Below, one piece after another: positions 4,337 to 20,762 of a DNA stretch of 20,762 bases. Source of the stretch: a virus. The notes beneath the pieces were generated by a model. It did no database searches. It worked only from the letters and a program-made list of their open reading frames with translations, and had not been told where the DNA came from. Numbering within the stretch: position 1 is the stretch's first letter; each line of letters opens with the position of its first letter. The position numbers were made by a program, and so were the translations under genes. Location of the stretch: positions 1-20,762 of IMG/VR virus record IMGVR_UViG_3300037325_000303. The stretch is one strand, 5' to 3'.

Positions 4337-4427
4337 TAAAACCTCGTCCCAAATTAATTCTTTGGCGAGGGTAGAATGAGCGCAGCTTGTCGGCAACCCA
4401 AAGATGTCACTGCTAAGATTGAAAAGT

Positions 4428-4847
4428 ATGCCCACCATCCGCGAAGCCATCCTCGCCGCGTTGCACGCTCGGCTCTCGGCGCTGCCCGCCACCGCTCTGC
4501 GCGGCGGGGTGCTGCCCGAGCGCGTGCCAGCTGAGGGCCTGTTGATACTGCGTGACGGCGAGCCGGGGGAGCCCGAGGTGACTTTGTCGCCCCTGCGCTA
4601 CCACTACCAGCACCGCGCTGAGATCGAGGCGGTGGTCCAAGGCGCGGCGCGTGACGCTGCGTTCGATACCCTGACCACTAGCATCGGCACCGCAATCGCT
4701 GGCGACCGCACGCTGGGCGGCCTCTGCGACTGGGTCGAGGCGGAAGCACCGCGCCCGGTCGATCTGCCCGTTGAGGGTGCGGCCAGCCTGAAGGCGGCCG
4801 TGATCCCGATGGTGCTGCATTATTCAACGGCCGATCCGCTCGGCTGA
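4428..4847 (+). CDS. Tail terminator-like protein (lambda gpU position)
   Basis: This 139-residue protein, beginning MPTIREAILAALHARLSALP, probably closes the top of the tail tube and joins it to the head. The pattern is an N-terminal helix, then a beta-rich body with YHYQHRAEIEAVVQG, ending in AVIPMVLHYSTADPLG. It matches proteins found immediately upstream of tail tube genes in this phage group, which are sometimes mislabelled acyl-CoA transferase. The start at 4428 was chosen over 4404 because the family begins at MPTIREA; the ribosome site is weak (GAAAAG just upstream), perhaps because the junction with the upstream inserted gene replaced the original leader. The next gene follows after 24 bases. 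Function is inferred from position and fold pattern. Confidence 0.65.
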   Translation: MPTIREAILAALHARLSALPATALRGGVLPERVPAEGLLILRDGEPGEPEVTLSPLRYHYQHRAEIEAVVQGAARDAAFDTLTTSIGTAIAGDRTLGGLCDWVEAEAPRPVDLPVEGAASLKAAVIPMVLHYSTADPLG

Positions 4848-4871
4848 CCCCGACAATTCAAGGAGAACACG

Positions 4872-5810
4872 ATGGCACGAGCCCAAGGGGCGCGGGCGCT
4901 GATGGCGCTTGCGTTCGAAACAACCTATGGAACGCCGCCGGTGGGCGGTTTCACAAAGATGCCCTTCGCCAGCACGTCGCTGGGGGCAGAGCAGCCTCTG
5001 CTGAACTCCGAACTGCTCGGCTACGGCCGCGATCCGCTGGCACCGATCAAGGATGCGGTGACGGCCGATGGCGATGTGGCCGTGCCGCTCGATGCGGAAG
5101 CCTTCGGGTACTGGCTGAAGGCGGCCTTTGGCGACCCAATCACGACTGGCACCGGCCCCTGGACCCATGAATTCCAGTCAGGGTCTTGGACGCTGCCCAG
5201 CATGTCGATCGAGACCGGCATGCCCGAGATCCCGCGTTTTGCGATGTATTCCGGCTGCGTGCTCGACCAGATCAACTGGCAAATGCAGCGATCTGGCCTG
5301 CTGACCGCGACCGCGCGGCTGGTGGCTCAGGGCGAGACCGTGGGCACAACTACAAGTGCAGGCACGCCTGCGGCCCTCGAATTGCAGCGCTTCGGCCATT
5401 TCAACGGGGCGATCACCCGCAACGGTACCGCCCTCGGCAATGTTGTGTCAGCCGACATCACCTATGCAAACAACCTCGACAGGATCGAAACCATCCGCTC
5501 GGACGGCCGCATCGACGGGGCCGATCCCTCTATCGCCGCACTCACCGGCTCCATTGAGGTACGCTTTGCCGACCAGACGCTGGTGACACAGGCGATCAAT
5601 GGCGATCCCTGCGAGCTCGAGTTCGCCTATGTGCTGCCCTCGGGCGAGAGCTTCATCTTCACCGTGCACGCCGTCTATCTGCCGCGCCCTCGGATCGAGA
5701 TTTCCGGGCCGCAGGGCGTGCAGGCCACGTTCGATTGGCAAGCCGCACGCGACAGCACGGTCGGCCGGATGTGCACCGCCACCCTCGTGAATGATGTGGA
5801 GATTTACTGA
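4872..5810 (+). CDS. Major tail tube protein
   Basis: This 312-residue protein is the likely subunit of the tail tube through which DNA passes. It has a good ribosome site, AAGGAG at 4860-4865. The N-terminus is MARAQGARALMALAFETTYG with TPPVGGF after it, the usual opening of the Phage_tube_2 group. The middle holds SADITYANNLDRIETIRSDG, and the C-terminal domain runs from about residue 240 as an Ig-like beta region ending in TLVNDVEIY. It precedes the tail assembly chaperone, as expected, and overlaps it by a single base in TGATG (5808-5812). That overlap permits coupled re-initiation. The family call is confident; no unusual features are seen. Confidence 0.88.
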   Translation: MARAQGARALMALAFETTYGTPPVGGFTKMPFASTSLGAEQPLLNSELLGYGRDPLAPIKDAVTADGDVAVPLDAEAFGYWLKAAFGDPITTGTGPWTHEFQSGSWTLPSMSIETGMPEIPRFAMYSGCVLDQINWQMQRSGLLTATARLVAQGETVGTTTSAGTPAALELQRFGHFNGAITRNGTALGNVVSADITYANNLDRIETIRSDGRIDGADPSIAALTGSIEVRFADQTLVTQAINGDPCELEFAYVLPSGESFIFTVHAVYLPRPRIEISGPQGVQATFDWQAARDSTVGRMCTATLVNDVEIY

Positions 5811-6265
5811 TGCTGACGCTCGATCTGACGAATGCACCTCGCTGGCACGACCTCGCGCCGGGCGTCCGGCTGCAGCTGCGCCCACTGACCACGGCGCTGA
5901 TGGTGGCAACGCGCAGCGACACCGCTGTGGGGACGGTTCCCGAGGAGGCGTCTGACGAGGAACGCGCCGTTGCCTTCGCCAAGGCGCTGGCACGCCGTGC
6001 GGTCCTGGGTTGGGAGGGCATCGGTGATGCGGATGGCAACCCTATCGATCCGAGCCCCGACGCTGTCGACACGCTTCTCGACATTTGGCCGATCTTCGAA
6101 GCATTCCAATTGACCTACGTCTCCAAAGGCCTGCTGCTGGACCAGGAAAAAAACGTCTCCGCGCTCTCGCCGAGTGGTCCTTCGGCGGGGGCGAGCGATA
6201 CTGCGAGGGTTGCGAACCCAGCGAAGCGTGCGAAGCGACGTGCAAAACCTGCCCGGCGCGGCTGA
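5810..6265 (+). CDS. Tail assembly chaperone, short (gpG-like) product
   Basis: This 151-residue protein is the zero-frame product of the tail assembly chaperone locus. Such proteins bind the tape measure protein before the tube polymerises and are not kept in the virion. It begins MLTLDLTNAPRWHDLAPGVR and has VDTLLDIWPIFEAFQLTYVS before the slippery site. After the slippery site (6148-6154) the zero frame reads a low-complexity tail rich in Ala, Pro, Lys and Arg (ANPAKRAKRRAKPARRG). That tail looks like translation of the other frame's coding sequence rather than a selected domain. Its ATG overlaps the tail tube stop. It lies directly before the tape measure gene, the invariable place for G/GT pairs in lambda-like siphoviruses. 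Confidence 0.85.
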   Translation: MLTLDLTNAPRWHDLAPGVRLQLRPLTTALMVATRSDTAVGTVPEEASDEERAVAFAKALARRAVLGWEGIGDADGNPIDPSPDAVDTLLDIWPIFEAFQLTYVSKGLLLDQEKNVSALSPSGPSAGASDTARVANPAKRAKRRAKPARRG

Positions 6266-6492
6266 ACCGGCCTGCGACCTTTGAGGGCTGGCAGGTCTGG
6301 GACCTGATCGGTCGCCTCGGCGGCCAACTTCGCATGCTGCCGGGCGCGGTGATCGGCTGGGATATGGCAGCGGCATTGGCGCTTGGTGATGCCCTCGGAA
6401 TCCCGCCTTTGGCGATGGCCGAACTTCTGCCCGCCGTCGAGGCGGTGATGGTCGCAAAACTTAACGAACAGATGGATCATTCCAATGGCTGA
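5810..6492 (+). CDS. Tail assembly chaperone, long (GT-like) product made by -1 frameshift
   Basis: Ribosomes that slip back one base at 6148-6154 continue from CGT at 6154 to the stop at 6490-6492. This gives about 227 residues: 115 shared and 112 new. The extension reads RLRALAEWSFGGGERYCEGC and continues with a second Cys pair, CKTC, then WDLIGRLGGQLRMLPGAVIG and a helical C-terminus. The extension frame has no credible start of its own: its open reading begins only at a TTG (6085) inside the upstream gene without a ribosome site. Its end overlaps the tape measure ATG (6485). In lambda the T extension recruits tail tube subunits to the tape measure. The cysteine cluster at 6208-6254 may bind zinc; that is inference. 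Confidence 0.85.
6148..6154 (+). promoter_or_regulatory. Programmed -1 ribosomal frameshift site A AAA AAC
   Basis: The zero frame reads GAA AAA AAC, so the heptamer A AAA AAC is in the correct register for two tRNAs to slip back by one base. It is a classical X XXY YYZ sequence. The -1 frame is open from before the site to 6492. Seven bases downstream a GC-rich hairpin is possible: CGCTC (6162-6166) with GAGCG (6193-6197), plus inner CGCC/GGCG pairs. Location between tail tube and tape measure genes agrees with frameshift sites in many tailed phages. Confidence 0.88.
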
Positions 6493-8968
6493 AAAGCGCG
6501 TTTCTGTCCGCTTGGCGGCAGTTGGCGGCCGACAGGTGCGCGCCGAGCTGGAAGGTGTCGGCGAGGCTGGGGCGCGCGGGTTCGGACGGCTCAGTCGGGA
6601 AATGGAAGCGGCGAACACGCGGCTGGCGGCGTTCTCCCGCCGGGTCCGGATTGCCGCTGCCGCTGCAGTCGTCGCAGCCGCTGCTGCTGGCGTCGCTATG
6701 GTCCGCTCGGGGCTTCAAACGGTGGATGCGCAGGCCAAGCTCGCGCAATCGCTCGGCACCACCGTCGCGTCTATCCAGACGCTGGAGCGTGCGGGCGAGC
6801 TGGCCGGTGTCTCCATATCCGGCATTGAACAAGCGACGAAGGACCTCACACGACGGCTGAGCCAGGCGGCTGCCGGGACCGGGCCCGCCGCCGACGCGCT
6901 GGAGCGGCTGGGACTGTCTGCCACCGACCTGATTGCCCTGCCGCTGGATCAGCGGGTGGGGGCGATCAACGCGGCCATCCAGGAGTTTGTCCCGGTCGCC
7001 GAGCGCGCGGCCGTCGCGGGTCAGCTCTTTGGCGAAGAAGGCTCGATCGCCATGTCGCGTATCGACACCGCGACGCTGCGTCAGGCGACCGAGGATGTTC
7101 TGGCCTTCGGTGTGGTCGTGTCAGAGCAGGATGCCGACCAGATCGAACGCACCAATGATGCGATCTCGCGTCTCGGCCTCGTCTGGCGCGGGCTGTCGAA
7201 CCAGTTAGCGGTTGCCGCAGCCCCCGCGCTCGAAGCGGTGGCGAATGCCATGGCGTCCGTGGCCAGTCGCACCGGGCCGCTGGGGGTTGCGATCCGGGGT
7301 CTCTTCGACAACATCGGCCGTCTGACCACTTACGCCGCTACGTTCGCGGCCCTCCTGGCGGGGCGCTGGGTAGCCGGAATGGTTGCTGCGGCGATTTCCG
7401 TACGCGGCCTTGCGACAGCTCTGGTTGTGATGCGCGGAGCGCTGATCCGCACCGGGATCGGGGCGCTCATCGTCGGTGCAGGAGAGTTGATCTACCAATT
7501 CGGCCAGCTTGTTTCCGGAGCAGGTGGCTTCGGAAATGCCATGGCGCTGCTGGGCAACCTCGTGAGCGAGGTCTGGGAGCGGATCAAGATGGGGGCTGGC
7601 AGCTTTGCGGCCTCCGCGATGGCCGCCTTTGCCGATGTGCAGACGGCGTCAGCCACCGCGATGCAGGGCGCGCTCGAGGGCGTCGTCGGTTTTGCCAATG
7701 CGGCCGTGAACAGTTTTGAGGGGGCTTTTGAGGCGATCAAAGCCGTCTGGGGGCTTTTGCCTGCCGCCATCGGCGATCTCGCGTTTCAGGCGGCAAACAG
7801 CCTGATTGAAGGTGTTGAAGCGATGTTGAACGGCGTCGTTTCCCGGATCAATGGCTTCATCGGCGGCGTGAACGCCGGTCTTGAAGCGCTCGGCGTTGAG
7901 CGGCGGATTGGCCTTATTGCCGATCTTGATCTTGGACAGCTCGAGAACCGCTTTGCGGGTGCTGCGACCCAAGCGGCGACCGCGGCGCAAGATGCCTTTG
8001 CCGGTGCGTTCGAGGACAACCCGCTGGCCGTTCCGGATCTCGGACTGACAGAGGCCACCAATGACGCCGCCGCTTCAGCCGAGGCCTGGAGGCAGACTGC
8101 CGCAACGCTCGCTAACGGTGCCTTGCAACCACTCGAAGCGATGGAGGCTTTGCGCATGGCGATGCGTGCGGCCGGAACCGAAGCCGAGACCTCCCTCGAC
8201 GGAGCCACGTCAGCTGCGGATCGCTTCGACGCGGCCTTGGCGGACGATGAGACAGGCGGGCCCGGCGCCGCGCTCGATGAAACAGCGGCTGCGGCTGGTC
8301 GTGCCGGAGGGGCGCTGCAAAGCGCCGCCGATGTCGCGCGCCAGTCCTGGGACGCGGCCCGTGCTGCGGTTGAGCGCACGCAAGAGATCGCGAGGGGATT
8401 GGCGGATGACATCACCGGGCCGATCAAGGACGCGCTGAAGTCGGGCGAACTCAGCTGGCAAACCTTCGCGAGCGCAATATCCGGGATCGCGCAAAACCTT
8501 GCCAACAGGCTGATCGATACCGCCTTCAAGCCGATCGAGGACGCACTGTTCCGGGCTCTGTCCGGGTCGGGCGGTGGTGGTGGAGGTCTCTTTGGCTGGC
8601 TCTCTAGCGCCCTCGGCGGACTGTTTGGCATGGGCGGTACCTTCGCGCGGGGCGGTGCCTTTGGGCAGGCTGGCGAAATTACAGCCTTTGCCAACGGTGG
8701 CGTGGTCTCAAACCCGACGGTGTTTCCCTTTGCCCGCGGCATCGGGCTGATGGGTGAAGCAGGCCCCGAGGCCATCCTGCCGCTCCGGCGTGGTCGGGGC
8801 GGTCGGCTCGGGGTTGAGACGAGTGGCGATGGTCAGGCTACGCAGTCCGCGACCCGCATCGTCAATGTGCTCGATCCTTCGATTGTTGGTGATTATCTGG
8901 CTACGACCGCTGGCGAGCGGCTGATCGTCAACGTGATCCGGCGCAACAGGGGAGGCCTCGATGCCTAG
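6485..8968 (+). CDS. Tape measure protein
   Basis: This 827-residue protein sets tail length and is ejected ahead of the DNA. It is Ala- and Gly-rich and largely helical, with hydrophobic stretches near residues 57-72 and 285-335. The C-terminal region contains the well-known sequence FANGGVVSNPTVFPFARG followed by MGEAGPEAILPLRRG, typical of lambda-like and other siphovirus tape measures. About 40 residues later the protein ends in NVIRRNRGGLDA. From the roughly 1.5 angstrom per residue rule for helical tape measures, a tail of about 120 nm is expected. The ATG overlaps the stop of the frameshift product (6490-6492), and its stop overlaps the next ATG at 8961. Both overlaps suggest coupled translation. 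Confidence 0.93.
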   Translation: MAEKRVSVRLAAVGGRQVRAELEGVGEAGARGFGRLSREMEAANTRLAAFSRRVRIAAAAAVVAAAAAGVAMVRSGLQTVDAQAKLAQSLGTTVASIQTLERAGELAGVSISGIEQATKDLTRRLSQAAAGTGPAADALERLGLSATDLIALPLDQRVGAINAAIQEFVPVAERAAVAGQLFGEEGSIAMSRIDTATLRQATEDVLAFGVVVSEQDADQIERTNDAISRLGLVWRGLSNQLAVAAAPALEAVANAMASVASRTGPLGVAIRGLFDNIGRLTTYAATFAALLAGRWVAGMVAAAISVRGLATALVVMRGALIRTGIGALIVGAGELIYQFGQLVSGAGGFGNAMALLGNLVSEVWERIKMGAGSFAASAMAAFADVQTASATAMQGALEGVVGFANAAVNSFEGAFEAIKAVWGLLPAAIGDLAFQAANSLIEGVEAMLNGVVSRINGFIGGVNAGLEALGVERRIGLIADLDLGQLENRFAGAATQAATAAQDAFAGAFEDNPLAVPDLGLTEATNDAAASAEAWRQTAATLANGALQPLEAMEALRMAMRAAGTEAETSLDGATSAADRFDAALADDETGGPGAALDETAAAAGRAGGALQSAADVARQSWDAARAAVERTQEIARGLADDITGPIKDALKSGELSWQTFASAISGIAQNLANRLIDTAFKPIEDALFRALSGSGGGGGGLFGWLSSALGGLFGMGGTFARGGAFGQAGEITAFANGGVVSNPTVFPFARGIGLMGEAGPEAILPLRRGRGGRLGVETSGDGQATQSATRIVNVLDPSIVGDYLATTAGERLIVNVIRRNRGGLDA

Positions 8969-10082
8969 ACTTTGGCCTTTCCCGGTACGCCACCCTGTCA
9001 CCGAGGTGCTGGAATGGAACACCGACACCCTGATCACAGAGGCCGCCGAACAGCGGATTGCGCTGCGCACCCTGCCGCGGTCGATTCTGACGGTCTCGCA
9101 TCTCCTCAATGCCAGTGACCTCGCGCGCGCGGCCGAGCTTGCCCGGGCGGGATTGGTCGATAAGTGGACGGTGCCGCTCTGGCACCTTGCACGCCCGTCC
9201 ACTGTGTCGGTTGATGCCGCCGACATCACTGTATTCGTCGATTCCGGCGAGGGAGCGTTCGAAGCGCTGGGACAGGCCGTCATCGCGGCTGACGGAGGTG
9301 TGGCATATCTTGTCGAAGTCAGCGCGGTCCTGCCAGACCGGTTGGAGCTGGCCGCGCCTGCGGGCGTGAGCCTTGTGCATCCGATTGTGACTCCGGTGGG
9401 CATCGGGATCCTGACGCGACCCCTCGAGATCGACCGACGCCGCCAGGGGCTGGGAACGGTCACGGCGACCTTCACTCTACAAACTGGGACCGACCTGTCT
9501 GCCAGCAGCTACGCGACCCATCTGGGTCTGGATGTGCTTACCGATCCGGCCGTGCTGCGCCAACCGCTGGGGGAGACACTTGGGCAGACCGTTGAATTCA
9601 TCGACAATGGCTTCGGTCCCATCGTGATCGAACCCGTGCTGACCCATGTCCAGCGCCGCTCGACCATCACATTGATCGACCGTGGTGCGGCCCGCTGGAC
9701 GCGCCGCCTCTGGCTGAATTCCCTGCGCGGCCGCCAACGTGCTTTCTGGCTTCCGACCTGGGGCCGGGAACTGGTCCTGCAGGCACCGGTCACGTCCTTG
9801 GCCACCTCCGCGATAATTGCAGACATTATGGATCCCGGCGTCTTGATCGGACGGCATGTAATGTTCGAGATCGTTTCTGGGCCGGTGTTCCGCAAGATCA
9901 CAAACGCCGTCTATGACGCGCTCGGGCTCAAGCTGACCATCGCAGCGCCGGGCAAGAGCATTCCAATAACAACGCCCATCCATCTGCTCACCAAGGTGCG
10001 GCTCGATACCGACCGGATCGAGATCGAGCATTTTGCGGGCCGGACTGAGTTCGCGGCAAGCTTGATTGAGATTCCTGGATGA
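8961..10082 (+). CDS. Distal tail / tail tip protein of unknown family
   Basis: This 373-residue protein starts at ATG 8961, overlapping the tape measure stop. It opens MPRLWPFPVRHPVTEVLEWN. The second half is beta-rich and contains RLWLNSLRGRQRAFWLPTWG, an R-x-F-W-x-P-x-W motif that I associate with distal tail and tip proteins placed just after the tape measure. No enzyme motif, signal peptide or membrane segment is seen. Its place between tape measure and the BR0599-type gene corresponds to lambda gpM, so a structural role at the tail tip is likely. The stop overlaps the next gene's start (ATGA at 10079-10082). I cannot name a family with confidence. Confidence 0.7.
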   Translation: MPRLWPFPVRHPVTEVLEWNTDTLITEAAEQRIALRTLPRSILTVSHLLNASDLARAAELARAGLVDKWTVPLWHLARPSTVSVDAADITVFVDSGEGAFEALGQAVIAADGGVAYLVEVSAVLPDRLELAAPAGVSLVHPIVTPVGIGILTRPLEIDRRRQGLGTVTATFTLQTGTDLSASSYATHLGLDVLTDPAVLRQPLGETLGQTVEFIDNGFGPIVIEPVLTHVQRRSTITLIDRGAARWTRRLWLNSLRGRQRAFWLPTWGRELVLQAPVTSLATSAIIADIMDPGVLIGRHVMFEIVSGPVFRKITNAVYDALGLKLTIAAPGKSIPITTPIHLLTKVRLDTDRIEIEHFAGRTEFAASLIEIPG

Positions 10083-10927
10083 CCTATGATCTTGCCGAGA
10101 CCTCGACCGCCGAAGGGCGGCCGTATTTCCTGTATCTGTTCGCGGAAGGCGATCAGGTTTGGCGCTTCACCAGCCGCACGGCGATCTGGACCTCGCCCGC
10201 AGGGGCCAACGCCGATGAGACCGAGGATCTGATCTGGGACCCTTCGGCCGTCAGCCATGGGTCCGTCGTCCAGAGCAGCGACCCACGGCGGGTCGATCTC
10301 AGCGTCACCTTTCCGCTCTCCGATACCTTTGCCCGCCGCTATCTCGGACCTCGCGGTCGGGCGGTCACAACGCTGACCATCTTTCGCGGCCACGAGCAGG
10401 TGCCAACGGAGGTGGTCGCGCATTGGAAGGGCCGGGTCGTATCGGCCCGGGTCGAGGGACGGCGCATCACCCTTCGCTGTGAATCTCTGTTCACATCCAT
10501 GCGTCGCGAAGGCGTGCGCGCGAAATACCAACGCCTTTGCCGTCATGCTCTTTATTCCCGAGGATGCCGTCTCGACATCGAGAGTTTTTTCGTCGGGGGC
10601 ACAGCCAGCGCGCATCAGGGCCTGACGATCACCGTCTTCGAGGCTGCGTTGCTGCCCAACGGCTGGTTTCGAGGCGGCGTGCTGCGCCACGCGGGCCTTC
10701 TGGGGTTCATCACCGGGCATGTTGGGGATGCGCTGACACTCTCTGGCCGCATGCCCGATCTGGAGGTAGCCATCGACGATCCCGAAGCCCTGGCGCTCGT
10801 CGAGATCGCGCCCGGCTGCGATCTGCGGCGCGACACCTGCAAGGCCAAGTTCGGCAATCTCCTGAACTTCGGCGGCTTTCCCGACATTCCCGGCCGCAAT
10901 CCGTTCGGCGGCACCAGCATCGTCTGA
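10079..10927 (+). CDS. Tail tip hub protein, DUF2163/Phage_BR0599 type (lambda gpL-like)
   Basis: This 282-residue protein has the DUF2163-like N-terminal beta domain and a C-terminal BR0599-like part ending FGNLLNFGGFPDIPGRNPFG, the hallmark of that family. Homologous proteins lie at the base of the tail in siphoviruses and in gene transfer agents. Four cysteines pair up as Cys154/Cys163 (QRLCRHALYSRGC) and Cys247/Cys254 (GCDLRRDTC). The spacing resembles the four-cysteine iron-sulfur site described for lambda gpL, so a [4Fe-4S] cluster is plausible. Start and stop are well placed: ATGA overlap at the front, 51 bases to the next gene at the back. The family call is firm; the metal site is inferred from cysteine spacing alone. 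Confidence 0.85.
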   Translation: MTYDLAETSTAEGRPYFLYLFAEGDQVWRFTSRTAIWTSPAGANADETEDLIWDPSAVSHGSVVQSSDPRRVDLSVTFPLSDTFARRYLGPRGRAVTTLTIFRGHEQVPTEVVAHWKGRVVSARVEGRRITLRCESLFTSMRREGVRAKYQRLCRHALYSRGCRLDIESFFVGGTASAHQGLTITVFEAALLPNGWFRGGVLRHAGLLGFITGHVGDALTLSGRMPDLEVAIDDPEALALVEIAPGCDLRRDTCKAKFGNLLNFGGFPDIPGRNPFGGTSIV

Positions 10928-10978
10928 CCCCAAGCGATCCAAGTTTAACTCGAAACGCTAGAAATCTGAGAACCCATC

Positions 10979-11227
10979 ATGGTCTGGAACTTCGTCGTCC
11001 AGATCGTCGCCAGCCTCGTGCTGACGGCGATCTCCTATGCGCTGTCGCCCAAGCCGAAGATCGAGGCCCCGAAAGCCGCAGGGCTTGATGACTTCGACCT
11101 GCCAACGGCCGAGGAAGGCCGCCCCATCCCTGTGGTCTTCGGCACCGTGCTGCTGCGCGGCCCCAACGTCGTCTGGACCGGGGATCTCAAGGTCGATCCG
11201 ATCCGCAAGAAGGGCGGCAAGAAATGA
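10979..11227 (+). CDS. Small tail tip protein with hydrophobic N-terminus
   Basis: An 82-residue protein with an N-terminal hydrophobic stretch (residues about 3-21, WNFVVQIVASLVLTAISYAL). After it come a Pro/Lys-rich segment and RPIPVVFGTVLLRGPNVVWT. That last motif is common near the N-terminus of large J-like tip proteins in other phages, where a phrase like P-V-x-G-T-x-x-x-x-x-x-V-V-W precedes the Y-R-Y-S segment. Here the Y-R-Y-S segment begins the 1117-residue protein two genes on. The small gene therefore looks like a separately encoded front part of the tip protein. The stop overlaps the next start by ATGA (11224-11227). Exact function is unknown; it may help insert or anchor the tip. 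Confidence 0.7.
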   Translation: MVWNFVVQIVASLVLTAISYALSPKPKIEAPKAAGLDDFDLPTAEEGRPIPVVFGTVLLRGPNVVWTGDLKVDPIRKKGGKK

Positions 11228-11457
11228 GCGAAGATCTGATCGTCAAAGACCTCATCGTCACTGTGCAGGACCTGCGCGCCTCCCGGCTTTGCTTTCAGGG
11301 CGCGCGGCCCTGGTTCCGCCGCCATGGCCTCGACTGGCAGGCGTTCCTGGCGGAGGGCATCTCGGCCGATGTGCTCGCGGCGACAGGCGACGCCCTGGCA
11401 GTCCGCGTGATCGCCGAAGCCGAAAAGCGCACCGCACGGATCAAGGGCGAGTCTTGA
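11224..11457 (+). CDS. Small conserved-looking phage protein, function unknown
   Basis: A 77-residue soluble protein starting MSEDLIVKDLIVTVQDLRAS, with a middle CFQGARPWFRRHGLDWQAFL and a helical, charged C-terminus (EAEKRTARIKGES). The phrase G-x-R-x-W-F-x-R-H-G-L-D-W looks like a small family found between tip genes in alphaproteobacterial phages, but I cannot name it. ATGA overlap with the gene before and only three bases to the gene after argue that it is a real, co-translated gene. A role as assembly factor or small tip component is inferred from position. Confidence 0.68.
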   Translation: MSEDLIVKDLIVTVQDLRASRLCFQGARPWFRRHGLDWQAFLAEGISADVLAATGDALAVRVIAEAEKRTARIKGES

Positions 11458-11460
11458 GCC

Positions 11461-14400
11461 ATGGGTGGTCGTTCAAAGTCGCAAACCGTGGGCTATCGCT
11501 ATTCGCTGGGGGCGCATCTGGCGCTCTGCCACGGGCCCGTTGATGCGATCCGAGAGATCCGCGTTGATGATCGCACCGCCTGGTCGATCGGCACGGGTCA
11601 GAGCACGTCGCAAGGAACCGGTGTCGGCGCGCGGGCCAGCTACGGCACCGTCACCGGCATGTCTGCCATTGCTGCCGCAGAGGGCGACAACGTGGCCGAG
11701 GTCCGGTTCCCGGGCACGCTCCCCGGCATCCGACTCGGGCAGAGCTATGACCTGCAGCTTTTGACGGACACCATGACCCGCACCGTGACGGTTCAGGCTG
11801 TGAGCTTTGATGCGGGCACTGGCATCACCACCTGGCTCGTCGAACCTGCCACCACCGCCTTCACGGCCCAATCGGTTGCGGTGTCGGATGCCGCCAGCGT
11901 GCCCAGCCTGAACGGCGGCGCTGCGGGCGGACGCATCCGGATCAACAAGCCTGATCTTTTCGGCGGCGAGAAACGCGAAGGTGGCATCGTCGGTGACATC
12001 GACGTGCTGATGGGCGCGCCGGACCAGGCGCAGAACGACTATCTCGTGTCACAAGCCGGGGCCGATGTGCCGGGCTATCGCGGGATCTGCTCGCTGGTGC
12101 TGCGGCAGGTGTTTCTCGGCCTCAATCCGTACCTGAAGCCATGGTCAGTCCGCCTGACGCGGATCCTGAAGGCCGATGAGGACGCGCCGCAATGGTATCC
12201 CGAGCGGGCCCAAATCGTGCCGGAGGTGCGGATCGGGGATGCCGCGATCTACATCGCCATGGACGCCTCGGGCTCGATGTCGGGCGCGCGCATGGCGGCC
12301 CAGATTGCCGCGGTGTCGCGTCTGGTGGAGGAGATCGGCGAGAACGCCCCCGACACGCCACCTCAGCCCAACGACATCCAGATCATCACCTGGAACTCCA
12401 CGGTCTCCGGTACGATTCTGCGGCGCGACGCTGATGCCACGGCCTATTCGGAGCTCAAGGACTGGATCGATGCGCTCTCAAGCTCTGTCAGCGGCGGTAC
12501 GGATTTCGGGGTCGCCGTCAGCCAGGCAGGGGCGTTCTTCAATGGCGCGGGCGACAAACGGCGCATCCTGATCTTCGTGACCGACGGAGAGCCGAGCCCG
12601 GCCTCAACCCTGCAGACCGCGATTGCGACGCTCTCCGGTATCTCCGAGGTCGACGTCTTCGCCTTCAACATCGCGCTTTCCGATACCAGCGCCACCGCCC
12701 AGATCGACAACACGCCCGTCGACGGCGTTCCGGTCGTACCGCCGGGCGATCCCGATGCGCTGGTGGCTTCGCTGCGGGCGGCCTTCGGACAAGGCCCCGA
12801 CATGAACCCGGCCCATATCATCCGCGAATGTCTGACCAATGCAGACTGGGGCCTCGGACATACCTTCGCCGACATCGGCCCCAGCTTTGCCATCGCTGCG
12901 GACGCGCTGTTCTCCGAGGGCTTCGGGTTGTCGCTGCTCTGGCAGCGGGAATCCACGATCGAGGACTTCATCGCCGACGTGCTGAAGCATATTGACGCCT
13001 ATCTCTATGTCGACCGCCGCTCGGGTCGCTGGGAGTTGCGCCTCATTCGCGCCGACTACGATGCCGAGACCCTGATGGTCTTTGACGAGACCAATGTCGT
13101 TGACTGGGGCGAGCTCGGCCGTCGTGAGGCCGCTGATCTCGTCAACAGCGTCACGGCGAAGTTCTCTGACGCTCGTACGGACCAGACCGGATCGGTCAGC
13201 GTGACGGATACCGCGCTCGTACAGGACCTCGGTCAGGTGGTCAGCGCGACGGTCGATTACCCCGGCATTCGCTTCGAGTCCCTTGCCGTGCGGGTCGCTG
13301 AACGTGACCTACTGGCGCTATCGGCACCGATCTTGTCGGGCGAGATCACCGTTTCCCGTGTCGGTGCCGAGCTCGATCCGGGTGACGTGATCGTGCTGTC
13401 AAACCCTAGGCGTGGGCTTGAGGGTGTCGTGGTCCGCATCGTCGAGATCGACCATGGCGACGGGCGCGCCAATGGCGTGCGCCTCAGGATCGCCGAGGAC
13501 GTTTTTGCGCTTGGCGAGACCGCCCTTGTCGGCGGCGAAAGTGGCGATCCCGGCAGCCTGATCCTGCCGCCAAAGCCACTGACGCGCCGCTGGGTGGCGG
13601 AAGCACCATACTGGTTGCTGGTCCAGGAGTTGGGGCATGCGCAGGCCGACGCGCTTCTCGATGAGGATCCGGGGGTGGGCGCGATCGTTGCGGCCGGGGA
13701 ACGTCCCTCGGCCGATGCGCTTTCGGCGCAGGTCTGGAGCGACAGCGGGGCGGGGTACACGCTCGAAGAAGCGGTCGAGTTCGTGCCGACCGCGTTGCTT
13801 GTATCGGACATCAGCGATGATCCGACTGAGCGCGTCCTCTCGGTTGGCAGTTGGACCGGGCTCGGGGACGTTGCCATCGGTACGCTGGCCGTGATCGGCG
13901 ACGAGCTGGTCCGGATCGATGGGGTGAGCGCGACGGAGCTGACCGTCGGGCGGGGCTGTCTCGACACGGTGCCGCAAGCCCATACCGCGGGCACGCCAGT
14001 CATCTGCTGGCAGCAGCTGGCGAATGCGTCGGAGGCGGGCTTTGTGGCCGGAGAGACGGTCACGATCAAGATGCTGCCCGAGACCGGTTTCGGGACACTA
14101 CCGCTCGCGCAGGCACCCGAAGATGTCGTGACGCTGGCCAGCCGCGCCATCCGGCCGCTGCCACCCGGCGATCTGCGCGGCAATGGCGTCTCGGTCGTGA
14201 ACCCGAACGTCCTGAACCTCGGGCCGGTCCTTTTGGCCTGGTCCCATCGCGACAGGCTCACCCAGACCAGCAGCGTGTTCGATGCCTATGACGCGGGCGA
14301 TATCGGGCCGGAACCCGGCGTCACCTACGCCGTCGAGATCCGCTGGGTCGATCCGGATACCGACGCAACTATCGAGCCACCCGCCGCCGTGATCGACGTA

Positions 14401-14814
14401 GGCGCCGCCAACAGCATCACGCTGACAAAAGAGGATGTGCCGATCCTTACCGCTCCCACCGGCACCAAGCATTTCGAGGTCCGGGTGCAGGCCCGGCGCA
14501 CGACCGGCACGGTCGCCTATGAGGCGTGGCAGGCCCGATCGATCCGGCTCTTCATGCCGGACGGTATCAAGGTCGCCGAGGTTTCCGCCTGGACAGAGAT
14601 CGGGGCCGACGCGCGCCTGACCGTTGCCGAGACGGTGATCTTCTTGGATCGCGGCGGGGCGGTACAGCTGACCATCGCAGAAGCCGCCATCTGGATCGGC
14701 TTTGGCAGTGACGCGCGCCTCACCATCCCCGACATCGACATCTTCAATGAATGGGGCGGTCAGTCCCGTCTCACGGCCGCCGAGGCCGCTCTCTACATAG
14801 AGGTACTCCCATGA
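11461..14814 (+). CDS. J-like tail tip / host-contact protein with inserted von Willebrand A domain
   Basis: This 1117-residue protein is the central tip protein that probably contacts the host. It opens SQTVGYRYSLGAHLALCHGP, the usual start of the tip protein core. Residues about 262-440 form a von Willebrand A domain with a full metal-binding (MIDAS) set: DASGS 268-272, Thr347 in GGTDFG and Asp375 in VTDGEP. The tip core resumes with MNPAHIIRECLTNADWGLG and a Phage-tail_3-like part to about residue 690. The remainder is beta-rich and ends in four 17-residue repeats. The vWA domain is cleanly inserted, since the flanking sequences QWYPERAQIVPEV and MNPAHIIREC would join well in homologues. 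vWA domains bind proteins through the metal, so a role in adsorption is plausible but inferred. Confidence 0.85.
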   Translation: MGGRSKSQTVGYRYSLGAHLALCHGPVDAIREIRVDDRTAWSIGTGQSTSQGTGVGARASYGTVTGMSAIAAAEGDNVAEVRFPGTLPGIRLGQSYDLQLLTDTMTRTVTVQAVSFDAGTGITTWLVEPATTAFTAQSVAVSDAASVPSLNGGAAGGRIRINKPDLFGGEKREGGIVGDIDVLMGAPDQAQNDYLVSQAGADVPGYRGICSLVLRQVFLGLNPYLKPWSVRLTRILKADEDAPQWYPERAQIVPEVRIGDAAIYIAMDASGSMSGARMAAQIAAVSRLVEEIGENAPDTPPQPNDIQIITWNSTVSGTILRRDADATAYSELKDWIDALSSSVSGGTDFGVAVSQAGAFFNGAGDKRRILIFVTDGEPSPASTLQTAIATLSGISEVDVFAFNIALSDTSATAQIDNTPVDGVPVVPPGDPDALVASLRAAFGQGPDMNPAHIIRECLTNADWGLGHTFADIGPSFAIAADALFSEGFGLSLLWQRESTIEDFIADVLKHIDAYLYVDRRSGRWELRLIRADYDAETLMVFDETNVVDWGELGRREAADLVNSVTAKFSDARTDQTGSVSVTDTALVQDLGQVVSATVDYPGIRFESLAVRVAERDLLALSAPILSGEITVSRVGAELDPGDVIVLSNPRRGLEGVVVRIVEIDHGDGRANGVRLRIAEDVFALGETALVGGESGDPGSLILPPKPLTRRWVAEAPYWLLVQELGHAQADALLDEDPGVGAIVAAGERPSADALSAQVWSDSGAGYTLEEAVEFVPTALLVSDISDDPTERVLSVGSWTGLGDVAIGTLAVIGDELVRIDGVSATELTVGRGCLDTVPQAHTAGTPVICWQQLANASEAGFVAGETVTIKMLPETGFGTLPLAQAPEDVVTLASRAIRPLPPGDLRGNGVSVVNPNVLNLGPVLLAWSHRDRLTQTSSVFDAYDAGDIGPEPGVTYAVEIRWVDPDTDATIEPPAAVIDVGAANSITLTKEDVPILTAPTGTKHFEVRVQARRTTGTVAYEAWQARSIRLFMPDGIKVAEVSAWTEIGADARLTVAETVIFLDRGGAVQLTIAEAAIWIGFGSDARLTIPDIDIFNEWGGQSRLTAAEAALYIEVLP
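14614..14811 (+). repeat. Four tandem 17-residue repeats at the C-terminus of the tip protein
   Basis: Within the tip protein, the pattern [RQ]-L-T-x-x-[ED]-x-x-[IL]-[FWY]-x-x-x-G recurs exactly every 17 residues (51 bases), starting at residues 1052, 1069, 1086 and 1103. The copies read RLTVAETVIFLDRGG, QLTIAEAAIWIGFGS, RLTIPDIDIFNEWGG and RLTAAEAALYIEV. The DNA copies have diverged, so this is an old protein repeat, not a recent duplication. It may form a beta solenoid or a trimer tip; that is inference. Confidence 0.75.
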
Positions 14815-15806
14815 GCCACATTCTCCATCTTGGACACCAGGTCACTGATCTTTCCGGCGTGACCGGATTGATCAGCATCGACGCCGCGGGCTTCGATCCG
14901 GCCTATGACGTCAACACCATCAAAATCATCGCGAACAACGGATCGTCCGTACCGTTCACAGCCACATGGGCGGAGCCAACGGGCGATGTCTGGGTCGGGT
15001 TCCGATACCGGGCACCGTCGATCAACGCTCATATCATCGCGCAAGACGGCATCTTCCTCGAGTTCTACGACGCCGCGAACCGGCAGGTCGCCCTTGTCCG
15101 GACCGAGCGCGACGATGAGAGGTACCGCGCCATGGCTGTTGGCGACACCAGTGTCGACGGCGCTTCCTCCTTCGTCGCGGCCACGAACCAGGCCTACTGG
15201 ATAGATGCGAAGATCGCCGTCGGCGCGGACATCTCGATCGAGTTCTATGTAGATGGTGTGCTCCACAGCAGCGTAACCGCCGCAAACACCGGTGGTAAGG
15301 GACGGCCCGTACGATGCGTCTGGCGCAACCTCTACCTCTTCGATTTCTACAACGCGGCGACTTGGTACTATGCCCACATCGCCGTCCTTGACGGCGTCTC
15401 GACCATCGGGCGGCGGTTTGCGCGGCGCACGCCCGATCTGGTCGCGACCTATGACGCCTTCTCAGGCGGGGTCGATGCGGTGAAGGACGGCGATATTGCC
15501 ACCCGCGCCGCGAGCGACATCGCCGGTCAGCGCCTGTCGTTTTCGCTGGCGGGGCCAACGGGTCCTGCGGGGGCCTCAACCATCGCGGGCGTGCATGTGA
15601 AGCAACTGGCCCAGCTCGGGACAGCAGGACCGACGGGCGTCGCGGGGTTCCTACGGATTGGCGGGGTGGATTATGATGCGTCGCCAGGCACGCCGTCGCC
15701 GAATATGGCCAGTCCGGTCTATTCGACCTGGGACGTGAACCCGGCCGACAGCACACCCTGGACCACGGCCGCGCTGCCGACGGAAGCCGGGATCGTCTCG
15801 ACATGA
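14811..15806 (+). CDS. Tail fibre-like / receptor-binding protein with collagen-like pieces
   Basis: This 331-residue protein starts at ATG 14811, overlapping the tip protein stop (ATGA). A longer reading from 14751 would lie inside the repeats of the tip gene and is not favoured. Residues about 1-220 are beta-rich with many aromatic residues, for example FLEFYDAANRQVALVRTERD and IEFYVDGVLHSSVTAANTGG. This resembles the jelly-roll (LamG-like) folds used by phage fibres to bind surface glycans. Residues 248-254 (GPTGPAG) and 270-279 (GTAGPTGVAG) are short collagen-like runs, common in trimeric fibres. It is the last gene before the lysis module. Receptor binding is inferred from place and composition. 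Confidence 0.65.
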   Translation: MSHILHLGHQVTDLSGVTGLISIDAAGFDPAYDVNTIKIIANNGSSVPFTATWAEPTGDVWVGFRYRAPSINAHIIAQDGIFLEFYDAANRQVALVRTERDDERYRAMAVGDTSVDGASSFVAATNQAYWIDAKIAVGADISIEFYVDGVLHSSVTAANTGGKGRPVRCVWRNLYLFDFYNAATWYYAHIAVLDGVSTIGRRFARRTPDLVATYDAFSGGVDAVKDGDIATRAASDIAGQRLSFSLAGPTGPAGASTIAGVHVKQLAQLGTAGPTGVAGFLRIGGVDYDASPGTPSPNMASPVYSTWDVNPADSTPWTTAALPTEAGIVST

Positions 15807-16093
15807 CGCCACCCCGCGCCAATCATGGCGACATGCGCATGTCCGAGATCGAATTCCAGGCCATGCTGACACGCGCTGCCGAAGCGGGTGCCAAACGCGC
15901 GCTGGCCGATGCTGGAATCGATGGCAAGGACGCGGCCCTCGACATCCGCGATCTGCGCTCGCTGCTGGACTGCATCCGTTTCGTGCGGCGAACGGCCGTT
16001 CAGACGGCTGTTCATCTGATCACCACTGGCGTGATGCTGGCGCTCCTCGCCGGGATCGCCCTGAAGTTGAAGATCTTCGGTGGCGGTCCGTAA
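15803..16093 (+). CDS. Small membrane protein, DUF6127-like; possible holin
   Basis: This 96-residue protein starts at 15803 with an ATGA overlap. The N-terminal half is helical and charged, with MSEIEFQAMLTRAAEAGAKR and DAALDIRDLRSLLD. Residues about 66-90 (AVHLITTGVMLALLAGIALK) form a single membrane segment, followed by a short basic-to-glycine tail. I associate this pattern with DUF6127 proteins next to phage endolysins. No other holin candidate is visible between the fibre and the endolysin, so a holin role is possible, but one membrane segment is few for most holins. An inner methionine (residue 13, MSEIEF) could also be the start. Confidence 0.72.
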   Translation: MTPPRANHGDMRMSEIEFQAMLTRAAEAGAKRALADAGIDGKDAALDIRDLRSLLDCIRFVRRTAVQTAVHLITTGVMLALLAGIALKLKIFGGGP

Positions 16094-16124
16094 TCGCGCG
16101 CCGAAACTATATTCTTACTCACCC

Positions 16125-16149
16125 AAACCCGCCCATGTGGCGGGTTTTT
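16125..16149 (+). terminator. Intrinsic terminator-like hairpin before the endolysin
   Basis: AAACCCGCC (16125-16133) pairs perfectly with GGCGGGTTT (16139-16147) around a five-base loop, and the run of five T residues (16145-16149) ends the structure. It lies 32 bases after the stop of the small membrane protein and just before the endolysin ribosome site (16157-16161). It may terminate part of the structural transcript and delay or lower endolysin expression, with an antitermination mechanism allowing read-through. Confidence 0.55.
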
Positions 16150-16166
16150 CGTTTCTGGAGGACACC

Positions 16167-16841
16167 ATGAACACGACCTTCTACGAGCATTGGCGCGACG
16201 TGCCGGACGACACTTGGCGTTGGCCGAATTTCTCGCCCGCCGAAATCGCCTGCCGCGGTACCGGCAAGCTGCTGATCAACGAACCTGCGCTGGATAAGCT
16301 TCAGGCGCTGCGCGACCGGCTGGGCAAGCCGCTGATCGTCCGCTCGGCCTATCGCAGTCCTGAACACAACCGCGCCGTCGGTGGCGCGACGCGGTCCAAA
16401 CACATGGACGGCGCAGCCTTCGACATTGCTATGTCAAACCACGACCCCGTTGCATTTGAGGCGGCGGCACGCGCTGTCGGCTTCCTTGGGTTCGGCTTCT
16501 ATCCGCGCTCGGGTTTCATCCATGTTGATCTCGGCCCTGCGCGCCAATGGGGCGAGCGCTTCCCAGTCCGCGCGACTGCCTTCGCTACGGAATCCCTGAA
16601 GGCGCGCGAAGTGCTGGCCGACAGCCGTACCATGAAGGGCGGCGGGGCCGCAGGTGTCGCGACGCTGGGCGCGGCGGGGGTTGAGGTCGCGCAGAGCGTC
16701 CTGGCCGAAACTCAATCAGCAATATTGCCGCTGGTGCCCTACCTCGACACCCTGCGCTGGGTGTTCATCGCCGTGGCCCTCGTGGGGATTGCGGTCACGA
16801 TCTATGCGCGGCTTGATGACTGGAAGCGGGGGCAGCGATGA
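16167..16841 (+). CDS. Endolysin, M15 D,D-carboxypeptidase family, with C-terminal membrane segment
   Basis: This 224-residue enzyme probably cuts peptide cross-links of the cell wall. The zinc site of the M15A group is visible: His79 and Asp86 in SKHMDGAAFDI, and His119 with Asp121 in GFIHVDLG. The arginine-rich lead-in SAYRSPEHNRAVGG is also typical. The start at 16167 has a strong GGAGG at 16157-16161; the longer reading from 16080 would run through the terminator-like hairpin. Beyond the catalytic domain (about 1-135), residues 195-214 (LRWVFIAVALVGIAVTIYAR) form a membrane helix, followed by a basic tail. No N-terminal signal is seen. The C-terminal anchor suggests membrane attachment, or a built-in holin-like helper. 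The stop overlaps the spanin start (ATGA, 16838-16841). Confidence 0.87.
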   Translation: MNTTFYEHWRDVPDDTWRWPNFSPAEIACRGTGKLLINEPALDKLQALRDRLGKPLIVRSAYRSPEHNRAVGGATRSKHMDGAAFDIAMSNHDPVAFEAAARAVGFLGFGFYPRSGFIHVDLGPARQWGERFPVRATAFATESLKAREVLADSRTMKGGGAAGVATLGAAGVEVAQSVLAETQSAILPLVPYLDTLRWVFIAVALVGIAVTIYARLDDWKRGQR

Positions 16842-17095
16842 TCGGGGCGTTGTTCGGTGGGATTATCGCCAGCCCATGGGCACGGACTGCGCTGCGCTAC
16901 GGCGCTGTCGCCCTTGCCATCCTGCTGTTCCTGCTGTCGATCCGCCGCTCCGGCGAAAGCGTCGGGCGGCTGGCAGAACGTTTAGAGTCCACGGAGAAAG
17001 CCAATGACGTACAACGCCGGATGCTGGAAGCGGCGGCTCGCCGTCCTCGTGATCGCGATGATCTTGTTGACCGGCTGCGGGGCGGTGGGTTCTGA
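16838..17095 (+). CDS. Inner-membrane spanin (Rz-like)
   Basis: This 85-residue protein has one membrane helix at about residues 20-35 (RYGAVALAILLFLLSI) followed by a charged, helical periplasmic part (RLAERLESTEKANDVQRRML). That is the layout of an Rz-type inner-membrane spanin, which joins an outer-membrane lipoprotein to fuse the two membranes in the last step of lysis. It overlaps the endolysin stop by ATGA. The lipoprotein gene begins inside it in another frame at 17004, the classic Rz/Rz1 nested arrangement. It is shorter than lambda Rz (153 residues), but small spanins are common. The call rests mainly on layout and the nested partner. Confidence 0.78.
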   Translation: MIGALFGGIIASPWARTALRYGAVALAILLFLLSIRRSGESVGRLAERLESTEKANDVQRRMLEAAARRPRDRDDLVDRLRGGGF

Positions 17096-17804: not shown

Positions 17805-18350
17805 TTATCTGTCCTTGTCCGGATCCCTAATGATCACGCTCGGCTCGTCATAAACCTGACTCTCGTCCATGAAAGTGAGCCGCATACCCCATCCTGCAAA
17901 AGGTTTGATCAATGACAAGAAGGCGTCGGCGTCCAATTCTTCATCGTCGACATAGACGACCAAGTTGCCATCTTCGTCATCGGACAAATGGCAGCGCAGC
18001 ACTTGTCCTCTTACAGACCAATGTTGAAAATCCTCAAGCCATTCAATTTGTGGCCGTCCTCTTGGAACTTCTACCGGCCGATTGGCTGGGTCCGCGACAC
18101 TTGCGTCTTGCGCGGCGATTATGTCATTGAATACCTCAAGGACCTCAGCGTCGCTCATGTTTTGCAACATAGGCCCCAAGAGCAAACGTGTTATGCCGTA
18201 GGCAGTATCAGCATGTTCGATGATCGCATATTCACCATCACGCGAAATATGCACTTGATTGATTGTGGCTTGTGGGGGGCGTCGCAAACGCAAAGCTGTG
18301 CTCCAGATGTTCTGTTGGGTTTCCATGTCTTTTTGACCGGCTGTTTTCAT
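17805..18350 (-). CDS. Unknown 181-residue protein downstream of the BrxL-like gene
   Basis: No family is recognised. The protein is soluble and acidic. It has an N-terminal part with TALRLRRPPQATINQVHISR and EYAIIEHADTAYGITRLLLG. A later region has WLEDFQHWSVRGQVLRCHLS and then NLVVYVDDEELDADAFLSL. The C-terminus reads IKPFAGWGMRLTFMDESQVY and ends in DPDKDR. Alternating beta and acidic stretches suggest a small alpha/beta binding protein. The start may be at 18350 or at 18326 (METQQNIW); neither has a good ribosome site. It lies 106 bases after the BrxL-like gene on the same strand, with a possible promoter of its own between them. It could be a helper or modulator of that gene, or unrelated cargo; position is the only link. 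Confidence 0.7.
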   Translation of the reverse strand: MKTAGQKDMETQQNIWSTALRLRRPPQATINQVHISRDGEYAIIEHADTAYGITRLLLGPMLQNMSDAEVLEVFNDIIAAQDASVADPANRPVEVPRGRPQIEWLEDFQHWSVRGQVLRCHLSDDEDGNLVVYVDDEELDADAFLSLIKPFAGWGMRLTFMDESQVYDEPSVIIRDPDKDR

Positions 18351-18456: not shown

Positions 18457-20565
18457 TTATTTTTTGGGTGGTTGGTTCTGAAAAATATCCACCTTTGTTT
18501 CAAGGCACTTACGAAAACTAAAATCGTTTGTGCCAATTTCAAACCAACTCCCAGGGCGTTGATAAAAATCTAACCCCCGCCCAATCTTGATAATCCACCC
18601 ATTATCAAGGCGAATCTCCCGATCATGCATGTTTGAATTTAATTTTATTTCAAGAATTACATCAATTTCCAACAAACTCTGCTTTAAATCAGACAACTTT
18701 TTATCGATCTCTGCTAGCTGCGTGTTGTCGTCGTACCCAGTTACCAGCTCGATCTTCTTGACTGATCCCGTCTTAATTACGGTTTCGCAAAATCTCACAA
18801 AATTTTGAATTTGGTGCTGAAGTCGGATATAAGGATCCTCAATAATCACCGCTCGCGCGCCACGAAGATAAGGTCCAATGATTGACTCGTAACTGTGCCC
18901 CGTGTCGCCGTACATTATGGTGAAGTGCTGTTCGAGAGCTTCGGCACGGACAGGATCTACTTCATCTACTTCGCGCGGCGCAGGTGATGCGGGACTGATC
19001 GAAGCTTCAGTGGTTACGTCCACCGACGTTGCTACATCATCGGGATGCGGGTCCGTCTCATCTGAAACGCTCAACCTTCTTCGGGTCGGTTGTTGTGTGG
19101 CCGCGGCGTTCTTCGATTCCGGACAGTATACAACAATCTCTCGACCTTCTGAGCTGAAGTAGGAAAGATTGATTTGGGCAAACTCGTCATCCGGTTTGCG
19201 TTTATTCATCTGCTCCTTAACGCGGCGGCGGCACTCACACGCGTAGGCCACGTACTCTTCGAATTCAACATCGCTCGGCGCGCCATCGGGATGAAGTATC
19301 TTCAAAATTGCCGATACGGTTTTTTTGATACCTTTCTCATCACGTCCCTCTACCGCTTTTCCCAATCGAATGCGGCGGTTTACCTCCTCATACCGATTCG
19401 TATGTTTGAACTGATAATGAAATGCCTCTGCGAGATAGTCAGTGATAAACCCGTACCGGCTGGTTAGAGAAGAACTACTATTTTTAGGCAGCTCCCAGCC
19501 AGGAATATAGGCTGCAAATCGGTCCATTATAGCCAAGTCAAATTCAGGCGGAAGCGGCTGGAAGAGATCATACTCTGTCGAGTTGACAACCTGACTAACC
19601 GACAGATCAATATTACCTACAAAGCTAAGGCTGGCATCTGCGATAACTTCAGCACCGCGAGAAAACCGCCCATTCGCCATGAAGTCCTTCATGATTTGGA
19701 TCGTGTCTGGATCCCGTATTTTTATTCCTCCCACCTCATCAAACGCTACGGTGTCCCAATAGCCAACTAAGCCAACTTTGCGGCGAGCATTATTGTAAAA
19801 GAGCGTCGCCTTTGTCGCTTGTCCTCCCGATATGAGGGTGGCATAGGGAGAAAATTCACTGAAAAAATACGACTTCCCAGTCCCACGGGGACCCAGTTCG
19901 ATATAATTATAATTAGATTCTACTAGTGGAGCCAAACGAGCTACGAAGTGCATCTTGACGCGCTGCGAGAGCTTAGCTGACTCCAATCCAACTGATCTCA
20001 TGATTACGTCGAGCCACTGATCTCGAGTGAAAGACCTACGCCCCTCCGCATACTGTTTGAAATCAAAGCGGGAAAGTTGAATTGGCCGAAGGTCCTCTAT
20101 GTAGAAGGCATAGTGGTCTTCTTCGATGTCGTTGTGCGCAAGTGTAACCTCTGCCCAGATTCCGCCTTCCAGGAGCCGTTCGTTGTCCCGGTAGAACTTT
20201 TCACCGATTGCGATCCGCTGCGAGTTGAAGTTCTCTAATGATGCCCAATGGCGCTTTTCTTTCTCGACGTAACGAACGTGAACCTTGTCAATAAACCGAT
20301 GCTTGCCCTTGGTTGCGACTTTTGATTGGGCAGAATTTGCCTCGTCGGGCCTCACGTAATTGTCCTGAAGGGTTGCAAGTACAGCCTCCATACCTGCGTC
20401 CATTTCTGCCTGGTCGTCACTTGCGCAGAAACGTGCCAAGAGAAACTCAAGCACGAAAGTCGGTATGTTGGTGCCCTTCTTGATCCGATGAAGCAGATCT
20501 TTTCGAATAACCTTGCCATCGAAGGTTGACGTTAGGTGTTGGTCCAGTTCATCCATGTCGTTCAT
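18457..20565 (-). CDS. BrxL-like AAA+ protein with C-terminal MIT_C (PLD-like) domain instead of Lon protease
   Basis: A 702-residue fusion. Residues 1-490 follow BrxL of BREX phage defence almost motif by motif: FDGKVIRKDLLHRIKKGTNI, CASDD, NYVRPDEA, then Walker A GPRGTGKS (225-232), Walker B AFDE (274-277), FVGNID with Asn318, and DRFAAYIPGWELPK with Arg349. BrxL proteins assemble as ring-shaped ATPases on DNA. Ordinary BrxL then has a Lon-type protease domain; none is present here. Residues about 490-541 are a Pro/Ser/Thr/Asp-rich linker. Residues 542-702 read as an MIT_C domain: VIIEDPYIRLQHQIQNFVRF, NMHDREIRLDNGWIIKIGRG, LDFYQRPGSWF and ETKVDIFQNQ closely parallel the C-terminus of eukaryotic MITD1. 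That domain has a phospholipase D-like fold and binds membranes. The gene is AT-rich (18 of 60 bases from 18601 are G/C). No other brx/pgl gene is visible. Start at 20565 or ATG 20556. Confidence 0.9.
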   Translation of the reverse strand: MNDMDELDQHLTSTFDGKVIRKDLLHRIKKGTNIPTFVLEFLLARFCASDDQAEMDAGMEAVLATLQDNYVRPDEANSAQSKVATKGKHRFIDKVHVRYVEKEKRHWASLENFNSQRIAIGEKFYRDNERLLEGGIWAEVTLAHNDIEEDHYAFYIEDLRPIQLSRFDFKQYAEGRRSFTRDQWLDVIMRSVGLESAKLSQRVKMHFVARLAPLVESNYNYIELGPRGTGKSYFFSEFSPYATLISGGQATKATLFYNNARRKVGLVGYWDTVAFDEVGGIKIRDPDTIQIMKDFMANGRFSRGAEVIADASLSFVGNIDLSVSQVVNSTEYDLFQPLPPEFDLAIMDRFAAYIPGWELPKNSSSSLTSRYGFITDYLAEAFHYQFKHTNRYEEVNRRIRLGKAVEGRDEKGIKKTVSAILKILHPDGAPSDVEFEEYVAYACECRRRVKEQMNKRKPDDEFAQINLSYFSSEGREIVVYCPESKNAAATQQPTRRRLSVSDETDPHPDDVATSVDVTTEASISPASPAPREVDEVDPVRAEALEQHFTIMYGDTGHSYESIIGPYLRGARAVIIEDPYIRLQHQIQNFVRFCETVIKTGSVKKIELVTGYDDNTQLAEIDKKLSDLKQSLLEIDVILEIKLNSNMHDREIRLDNGWIIKIGRGLDFYQRPGSWFEIGTNDFSFRKCLETKVDIFQNQPPKK

Positions 20566-20762
20566 ACGGTATAGTCCGTCTCAAGATTAAGCGTGCTAAG
20601 GCTCGCCAGTGTTGTTGGGTTCAAGGCCTTTATCAAGAATTTTCGTAACTGCCCAGCATGACTGGCTGAGCCTCTGGGGCGATCAGATATTCAGCCGAGG
20701 CGCAGTTGTGCGATCAACTGATCTGACGGTTTCATCAGGGTTTCGATGACAGACCAACCCTG
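20566..20762 (-). other. Upstream region of the BrxL-like gene; possible end of another gene
   Basis: No sure feature. On the minus strand the frame from the right edge is open to a TGA at 20691-20693 and would end in SVIETLMKPSDQLIAQLRLG, which could be the C-terminus of a further gene in the same direction. At 24 codons, this may be chance. The 125 bases between it and the BrxL-like start contain no convincing promoter; a GCTCAGC/GCTGGGC stem-loop with one G-T pair lies at about 20651-20671. Confidence 0.25.

Follow-up and report, generated by a model that had tools for sequence, protein, structure and literature searches.

A gene on the minus strand of the analysed viral DNA (IMG/VR record IMGVR_UViG_3300037325_000303, 20,762 nucleotides; hereafter the window) encodes a BrxL protein in which the C-terminal Lon-like domain is absent and an MIT_C domain of the phospholipase D (PLD) fold stands in its place. 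We consider it probable that this brxL is the final gene of a Type-1 BREX operon, that it represents a BrxL subtype in which a PLD-superfamily domain replaces the inactive Lon domain, and that it acts as a restriction effector, an ATPase ring on phage DNA with a predicted phosphodiesterase (probably nuclease) tail. The architecture of the protein is widespread and has been described before, and the gene as such is ordinary.

The assignment to BrxL is based on the N-terminal domain and the BrxL-type AAA+ domain, both present with Walker A and Walker B motifs (Table 1). Pfam finds BrxL_N and BrxL_ATPase, in agreement with the core motifs that a first-pass annotation had read from the sequence. 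Seven of the eight Walker A residues are invariant in 89/89 aligned relatives, and G228 is kept in 88/89. In a phmmer search of the PDB, Acinetobacter BrxL (8emc) aligned to residues 5-474 (E 1e-123), and the PADLOC-DB 2023 BrxL model PDLC02508 matched across 1-695 of its 698 positions (959 bits). The protein passes the NCBIfam BrxL equivalog TIGR02688 (score 478, cut-off 329) and falls under the cut-off of the Lon-type full-length model TIGR02653 (550.7 bits against 628). A normal Lon domain with its Ser-Lys dyad did not appear, as Pfam hmmscan finds no Lon_C in the window BrxL; two Lon-type BrxLs used as a control do match Lon_C under Pfam. The protein thus stands outside the Lon-type subgroup, since the C-terminal Lon-like domain is absent. 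The plus strand of the same interval contains many stop codons.

Table 1. Features of the window; residue numbers refer to the BrxL protein.
Feature	Residues	Position	Strand	Evidence or remark
Tailed-phage late region: major head, tail, tape measure, tail tip, M15 peptidase/lysis		360..17095	plus	convergent with brxL
DUF7713 ORF downstream of brxL		17805..18350	minus	PF24828, E 3e-12; same strand as brxL
brxL variant (BrxL_N, BrxL AAA+, linker, MIT_C)	702 aa	18457..20565	minus	
MIT_C / PLD-fold domain	556-696	18478..18900	minus	PF16565, E 5.4e-52, whole profile
HDREIRLD, HKD-like H-x-R-x4-D motif	H647, R649, D654	18604..18627	minus	
Linker	about 488-541	18943..19104	minus	poorly conserved (alignment), low confidence (pLDDT <50 at 487-540)
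BrxL AAA+ ATPase domain	154-467	19165..20106	minus	PF13337, E 2.7e-120 (Pfam hmmscan)
Walker B VAFDE	273-277	19735..19749	minus	E277 aligns with E280 of Acinetobacter BrxL
Walker A GPRGTGKS	225-232	19870..19893	minus	
BrxL N-terminal domain	14-143	20137..20526	minus	PF20442, E 6.6e-44 (Pfam hmmscan)
pglZ, last 26 codons and stop		20562..20642	minus	4-nt overlap (ATGA) with brxL start
End of IS element interrupting pglZ		20645..20762	minus	contig end inside; 118 bp repeated elsewhere

The tail is an MIT_C domain by both sequence and fold over its entire length. The annotation had proposed that an MITD1-type MIT_C domain replaces the Lon half behind a linker at about 490-541, and both proposals hold: the complete PF16565 profile is found (E 5e-52) with an MITD1 fold, and low pLDDT together with poor conservation places the linker within a few residues of that range. 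The full-length AlphaFold2 model (pLDDT 52) was used only for marking the linker. Human MITD1 chains 4a5z and 2ymb align to residues ~548-699 (phmmer against the PDB, E 2e-38), and the phrases said to be shared with MITD1 are present in this alignment. A separate AlphaFold2 model of the last 166 residues (pLDDT 79, pTM 0.77) matches MITD1 with E 3e-17 and 46% identity in Foldseek and with Z 20 across 151 residues in VIA. This likeness is far beyond chance. A second tier of VIA matches lies far behind MITD1 and consists of PLD-family nucleases and lipases, for example, SauUSI (Z 8.8), TDP1 (8.5), the NgoAVII R-protein (8.2), and NucT (7.8); such values of 7-9 indicate a common fold and say nothing on function. 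The tail and the human MITD1 C-terminal domain have 46-48% identity, the same fold, and HDREIR...NGW..KIGRGLD in common. In contrast to the window protein, in which Pfam finds no N-terminal MIT domain, MITD1 has its own MIT domain fused and serves an ESCRT-III/midbody role.

The setting of the gene among its relatives is that of an ordinary Type-1 BREX operon. The survey that the annotation had suggested found the same fusion in many genomes: in 97 loci, made up of the window, 16 IMG/VR relatives, and the best 80 of 233 relatives from a scan of bacterial genomes, a PglZ-like gene (~842 aa) lies immediately upstream of brxL in 89, mostly with a pglZ-brxL overlap of 4 nt. PglX and BrxC precede the PglZ-like gene in loci that extend that far, and nearly all relatives have brxL behind PglZ in this way. 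The order in relatives is a brxR-like WYL gene, a small gene, brxA, brxB, brxC, pglX (one or two ORFs), pglZ, and brxL. In Roseivivax lentus, whose BrxL is 87% identical to that of the window, the operon is complete (WYL regulator, 170-aa gene, BrxA, BrxB, BrxC, PglX in two ORFs, PglZ, BrxL), and PglZ, PglX, BrxC, BrxA, and BrxB are each identified by a strong PADLOC model. Three further genomes, those of L022, L025, and L034, have the same order. PglX is encoded either by one ORF of ~1270 aa or by two adjoining ORFs of ~630 and ~640 aa, a methylase half and a second half (L018:3715-7472 and many other loci).

The window itself shows only the 3' end of pglZ, 92% identical to the PglZ C-terminus of locus L003, and the contig ends there; the full BrxA/BrxB/BrxC/PglX/PglZ set is seen in close relatives. 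That the gene is a stand-alone phage-borne effector without BREX involvement might be supposed from the viral origin of the record and from the phage late genes that adjoin brxL, but it is highly improbable given the pglZ 3' end ahead of brxL with the operon's 4-nt overlap and the whole operon in relatives. In four viral contigs (L014-L017, e.g. L014:3613-4656) BrxL is represented by its C-terminal ~347 aa alone, from residue 338 on and including MIT_C; this C-terminal-only form, beside phage tail genes, is a remnant or a truncated form.

Part of the case for an enzymatic tail is the H-x-R-x4-D motif, in which the HxKx4D signature of PLD-superfamily nucleases is seen with K replaced by R. H647, R649, and D654 are invariant in 89/89 relatives in the alignment. 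In the other BrxL-MIT_C clade (clade 2, see below) D is replaced by N in four examples and R by C in one, and therefore strict catalytic constraint is not general. The PLD-family restriction nucleases SauUSI, NgoAVII R-protein, and NucT share the PLD fold and an HKD-type motif with the tail, but have only 9-12% identity to it in structural alignments, and their motif carries Lys, unlike the Arg of the window tail. This exchange of the HKD Lys may count against the predicted catalysis. A point in favour of a nuclease is the MIT_C domain of a Sel1-repeat protein (L197) whose neighbours include an Mrr nuclease and an Eco57I-type methylase.

Taking published BrxL work as a guide, the preferred mechanism would run as follows. 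The BrxL N-domain and AAA+ domain would assemble ATP-dependent rings on phage DNA. The PLD-fold tails, with one HxRx4D motif per subunit, may then act as a phosphodiesterase, a step that is less certain, and would most likely nick or cut the DNA engaged by the ring. In PLD nucleases with a single motif, an active site takes two copies of it, and therefore pairing of tails within or between rings could restrict activity to assembled BrxL, switching it on only once the protein is on target DNA.

Two other roles for the tail have to be weighed against the predicted phosphodiesterase. Acinetobacter BrxL (8emc/8emh), which is alike in its N-domain and AAA+ domain, ends in an inactive Lon/RadA-like domain; its assembly on dsDNA depends on ATP, and its Lon-like tail, which shows no protease motif, joins two rings in a pair (PMC10164562). 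The MIT_C tail could thus be a catalytically dead assembly module, swapped one for one for Lon as the tail-to-tail ring-pairing domain, with PglZ or a block of replication responsible for restriction. The inactivity of the replaced domain agrees with this, as do the Arg in place of the HKD Lys and the variation in clade 2. Also against a nuclease tail, PglZ itself is reported as the BREX nuclease, and a second nuclease in BrxL is therefore not required. However, invariant H, R, and D in all 89 close relatives, from many phyla, is more than a pure dimer interface needs, and we regard a dead module as rather unlikely, though a serious rival. The other proposal, which goes back to the annotation, is a membrane anchor: the tail would hold the DNA-bound ring at the membrane, much as the MITD1 domain binds lipids at the midbody, and phage DNA would be sequestered there. 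MITD1 is the nearest homologue and fold, it groups with the window's clade, and it is reported to bind PI(4,5)P2; but this lipid is eukaryotic, the operon has no membrane-associated partner in the 97 loci and R. lentus, and the bacterial domain keeps the H-R-D in which human MITD1 has N for D, so that the bacterial side looks more enzyme-like. Membrane tethering is accordingly judged improbable.

The predicted nuclease tail has a published counterpart. Rakesh & Krishnan (NAR 2026, PMC12839542) found that an HKD endoDNase carrying an HRD motif takes the place of LonP in 1030 of 2913 BrxL-bearing Type-1 BREX taxa, and proposed the HKD domain of BrxL as an added nuclease; the first report of BrxL-HKD is credited to the Menshen paper. 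From the matching position, motif, and frequency, we infer that the MIT_C tail of the window is likely to be their HKD domain, although their main text does not mention MITD1. The window protein has a PLD-fold C-domain with HxRx4D in the place of LonP, and no difference was found between it and BrxL-HKD of Type-1 BREX (PMC12839542; PDLC02508), the two sharing an HKD/PLD-type tail, the HRD motif, and an adjacent PglZ. The suggestion in the annotation that the system was uncharacterised is consequently overtaken by a PADLOC-DB model and a published description, and the effector principle outside normal BREX that it had envisaged finds no support, as the gene type belongs to Type-1 BREX operons next to PglZ.

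BrxL-MIT_C proteins fall into at least two clades, with the window in clade 1. The tails of clade 1 are 45-51% identical to human MITD1; those of clade 2 are 30-37% identical to human MITD1 and 26-37% to the window. In the tail tree human MITD1 joins clade 1 with support 100/98, or 100/99 once a non-BrxL MIT_C domain is added, and branches off outside a moderately supported group within clade 1 (90/78); MITD1 is here the single eukaryotic sequence and the trees are unrooted. The simplest reading is that the MITD1 domain and the clade 1 tails may have a common ancestor younger than the one linking either of them to clade 2. That the MITD1 domain descends from the tail of one BREX BrxL clade is plausible, but somewhat less likely than not with one eukaryotic sequence and an unrooted tree; in its favour, MIT_C is otherwise nearly confined to BrxL tails among the bacterial genomes surveyed. 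The kinship of the clade 1 tails with MITD1, closer than with other BrxL tails, is possibly new: no relevant paper in the literature searched connects BREX with MITD1, the two words standing together only in a cancer review on another subject.

In its BrxL core, the window protein has 45-47% identity to Lon-type BrxLs and 36-40% to members of clade 2. These values hint at separate origins of the MIT_C tail in the two clades, which was not adopted as the core tree leaves a single origin unrejected (support 60). The idea that MIT_C is a general bacterial domain was also set aside. It occurs in 51 of 1642 genomes (five groups), 49/54 matches lie in BrxL-length frames, and the 44 of these 49 that were scanned are all BrxL-like. 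Rare MIT_C proteins do occur outside Type-1 BREX, and they are possibly new. For example, L196:675-6927 holds a divergent BrxL-MIT_C whose core is of a third type and which the tree puts close to short Type-4-like BrxLs; with a weak PglZ match on one side and an AIPR/AbiU-like protein on the other, it is possibly an undescribed BREX-like arrangement. The 1065-aa product of L197:4113-7310 has MIT_C (motif HDRSIETD) and, behind it, Sel1 repeats in 16 matched stretches; its neighbours, a HEC-07/NsnC-like gene, an Mrr-type nuclease, and an Eco57I-type methylase, place MIT_C outside BrxL in a defence locus.

The BREX copy of the window appears to be broken by an insertion sequence (IS) that entered pglZ 26 codons ahead of its stop, and the record ends within the IS. 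The same 118 bp are found in three unrelated contexts at 88-100% identity, and plasmid searches gave no match. By transposase C-terminus and terminal-repeat features, we take the element to be IS66-like. As the IS lies inside pglZ, the BREX copy is probably interrupted and impaired, and perhaps non-functional; an assembly chimera at the IS end, instead of a true insertion, is possible. The DUF7713 ORF downstream of brxL was considered as an operon partner, but it is a singleton not kept beside other brxL genes and is probably outside the system.

The other side of brxL is occupied by phage genes. Among the IMG/VR relatives that allow a judgement, most have phage lysis or tail genes downstream of BrxL-MIT_C, always convergent with it, and so do 8 of the 53 genome loci whose downstream sequence extends for 3 kb or more. 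Prophage genes abut the gene in the window (1-18457) and in L002-L005, L008, L013, L014-L018, L022, L025, L027, and L034; such loci span alpha-, beta-, and gammaproteobacteria, and in some of them 13-21 bp separate the phage genes from the brxL stop. The far side of the BREX operon is occupied by a tyrosine integrase in R. lentus, and Chitinilyticum has one on that side too. With an integrase on the opposite side in R. lentus, BREX may therefore be prophage cargo, and BREX of the BrxL-MIT_C subtype looks like a recurrent one. Its recurrence directly beside prophage lysis/tail genes is possibly new. Within the phage region of the window, a RES-domain toxin and Xre-like antitoxin pair (1384-2611, minus strand) lies among the head/tail genes, and a 305-aa ORF (3575-4492, minus strand) of the tail region has no family assigned and only weak PADLOC matches.

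The gene by itself is of moderate to low interest; its relationship to MITD1 is of higher interest. With an intact ORF and a clear HxRx4D motif, a nuclease, an assembly domain, and a membrane anchor are separable by point mutants, and the solved structures of MITD1 provide a template for choosing them. The link to MITD1, if true, would add one more case of a domain from eukaryotic cell biology with kin in bacterial phage defence.
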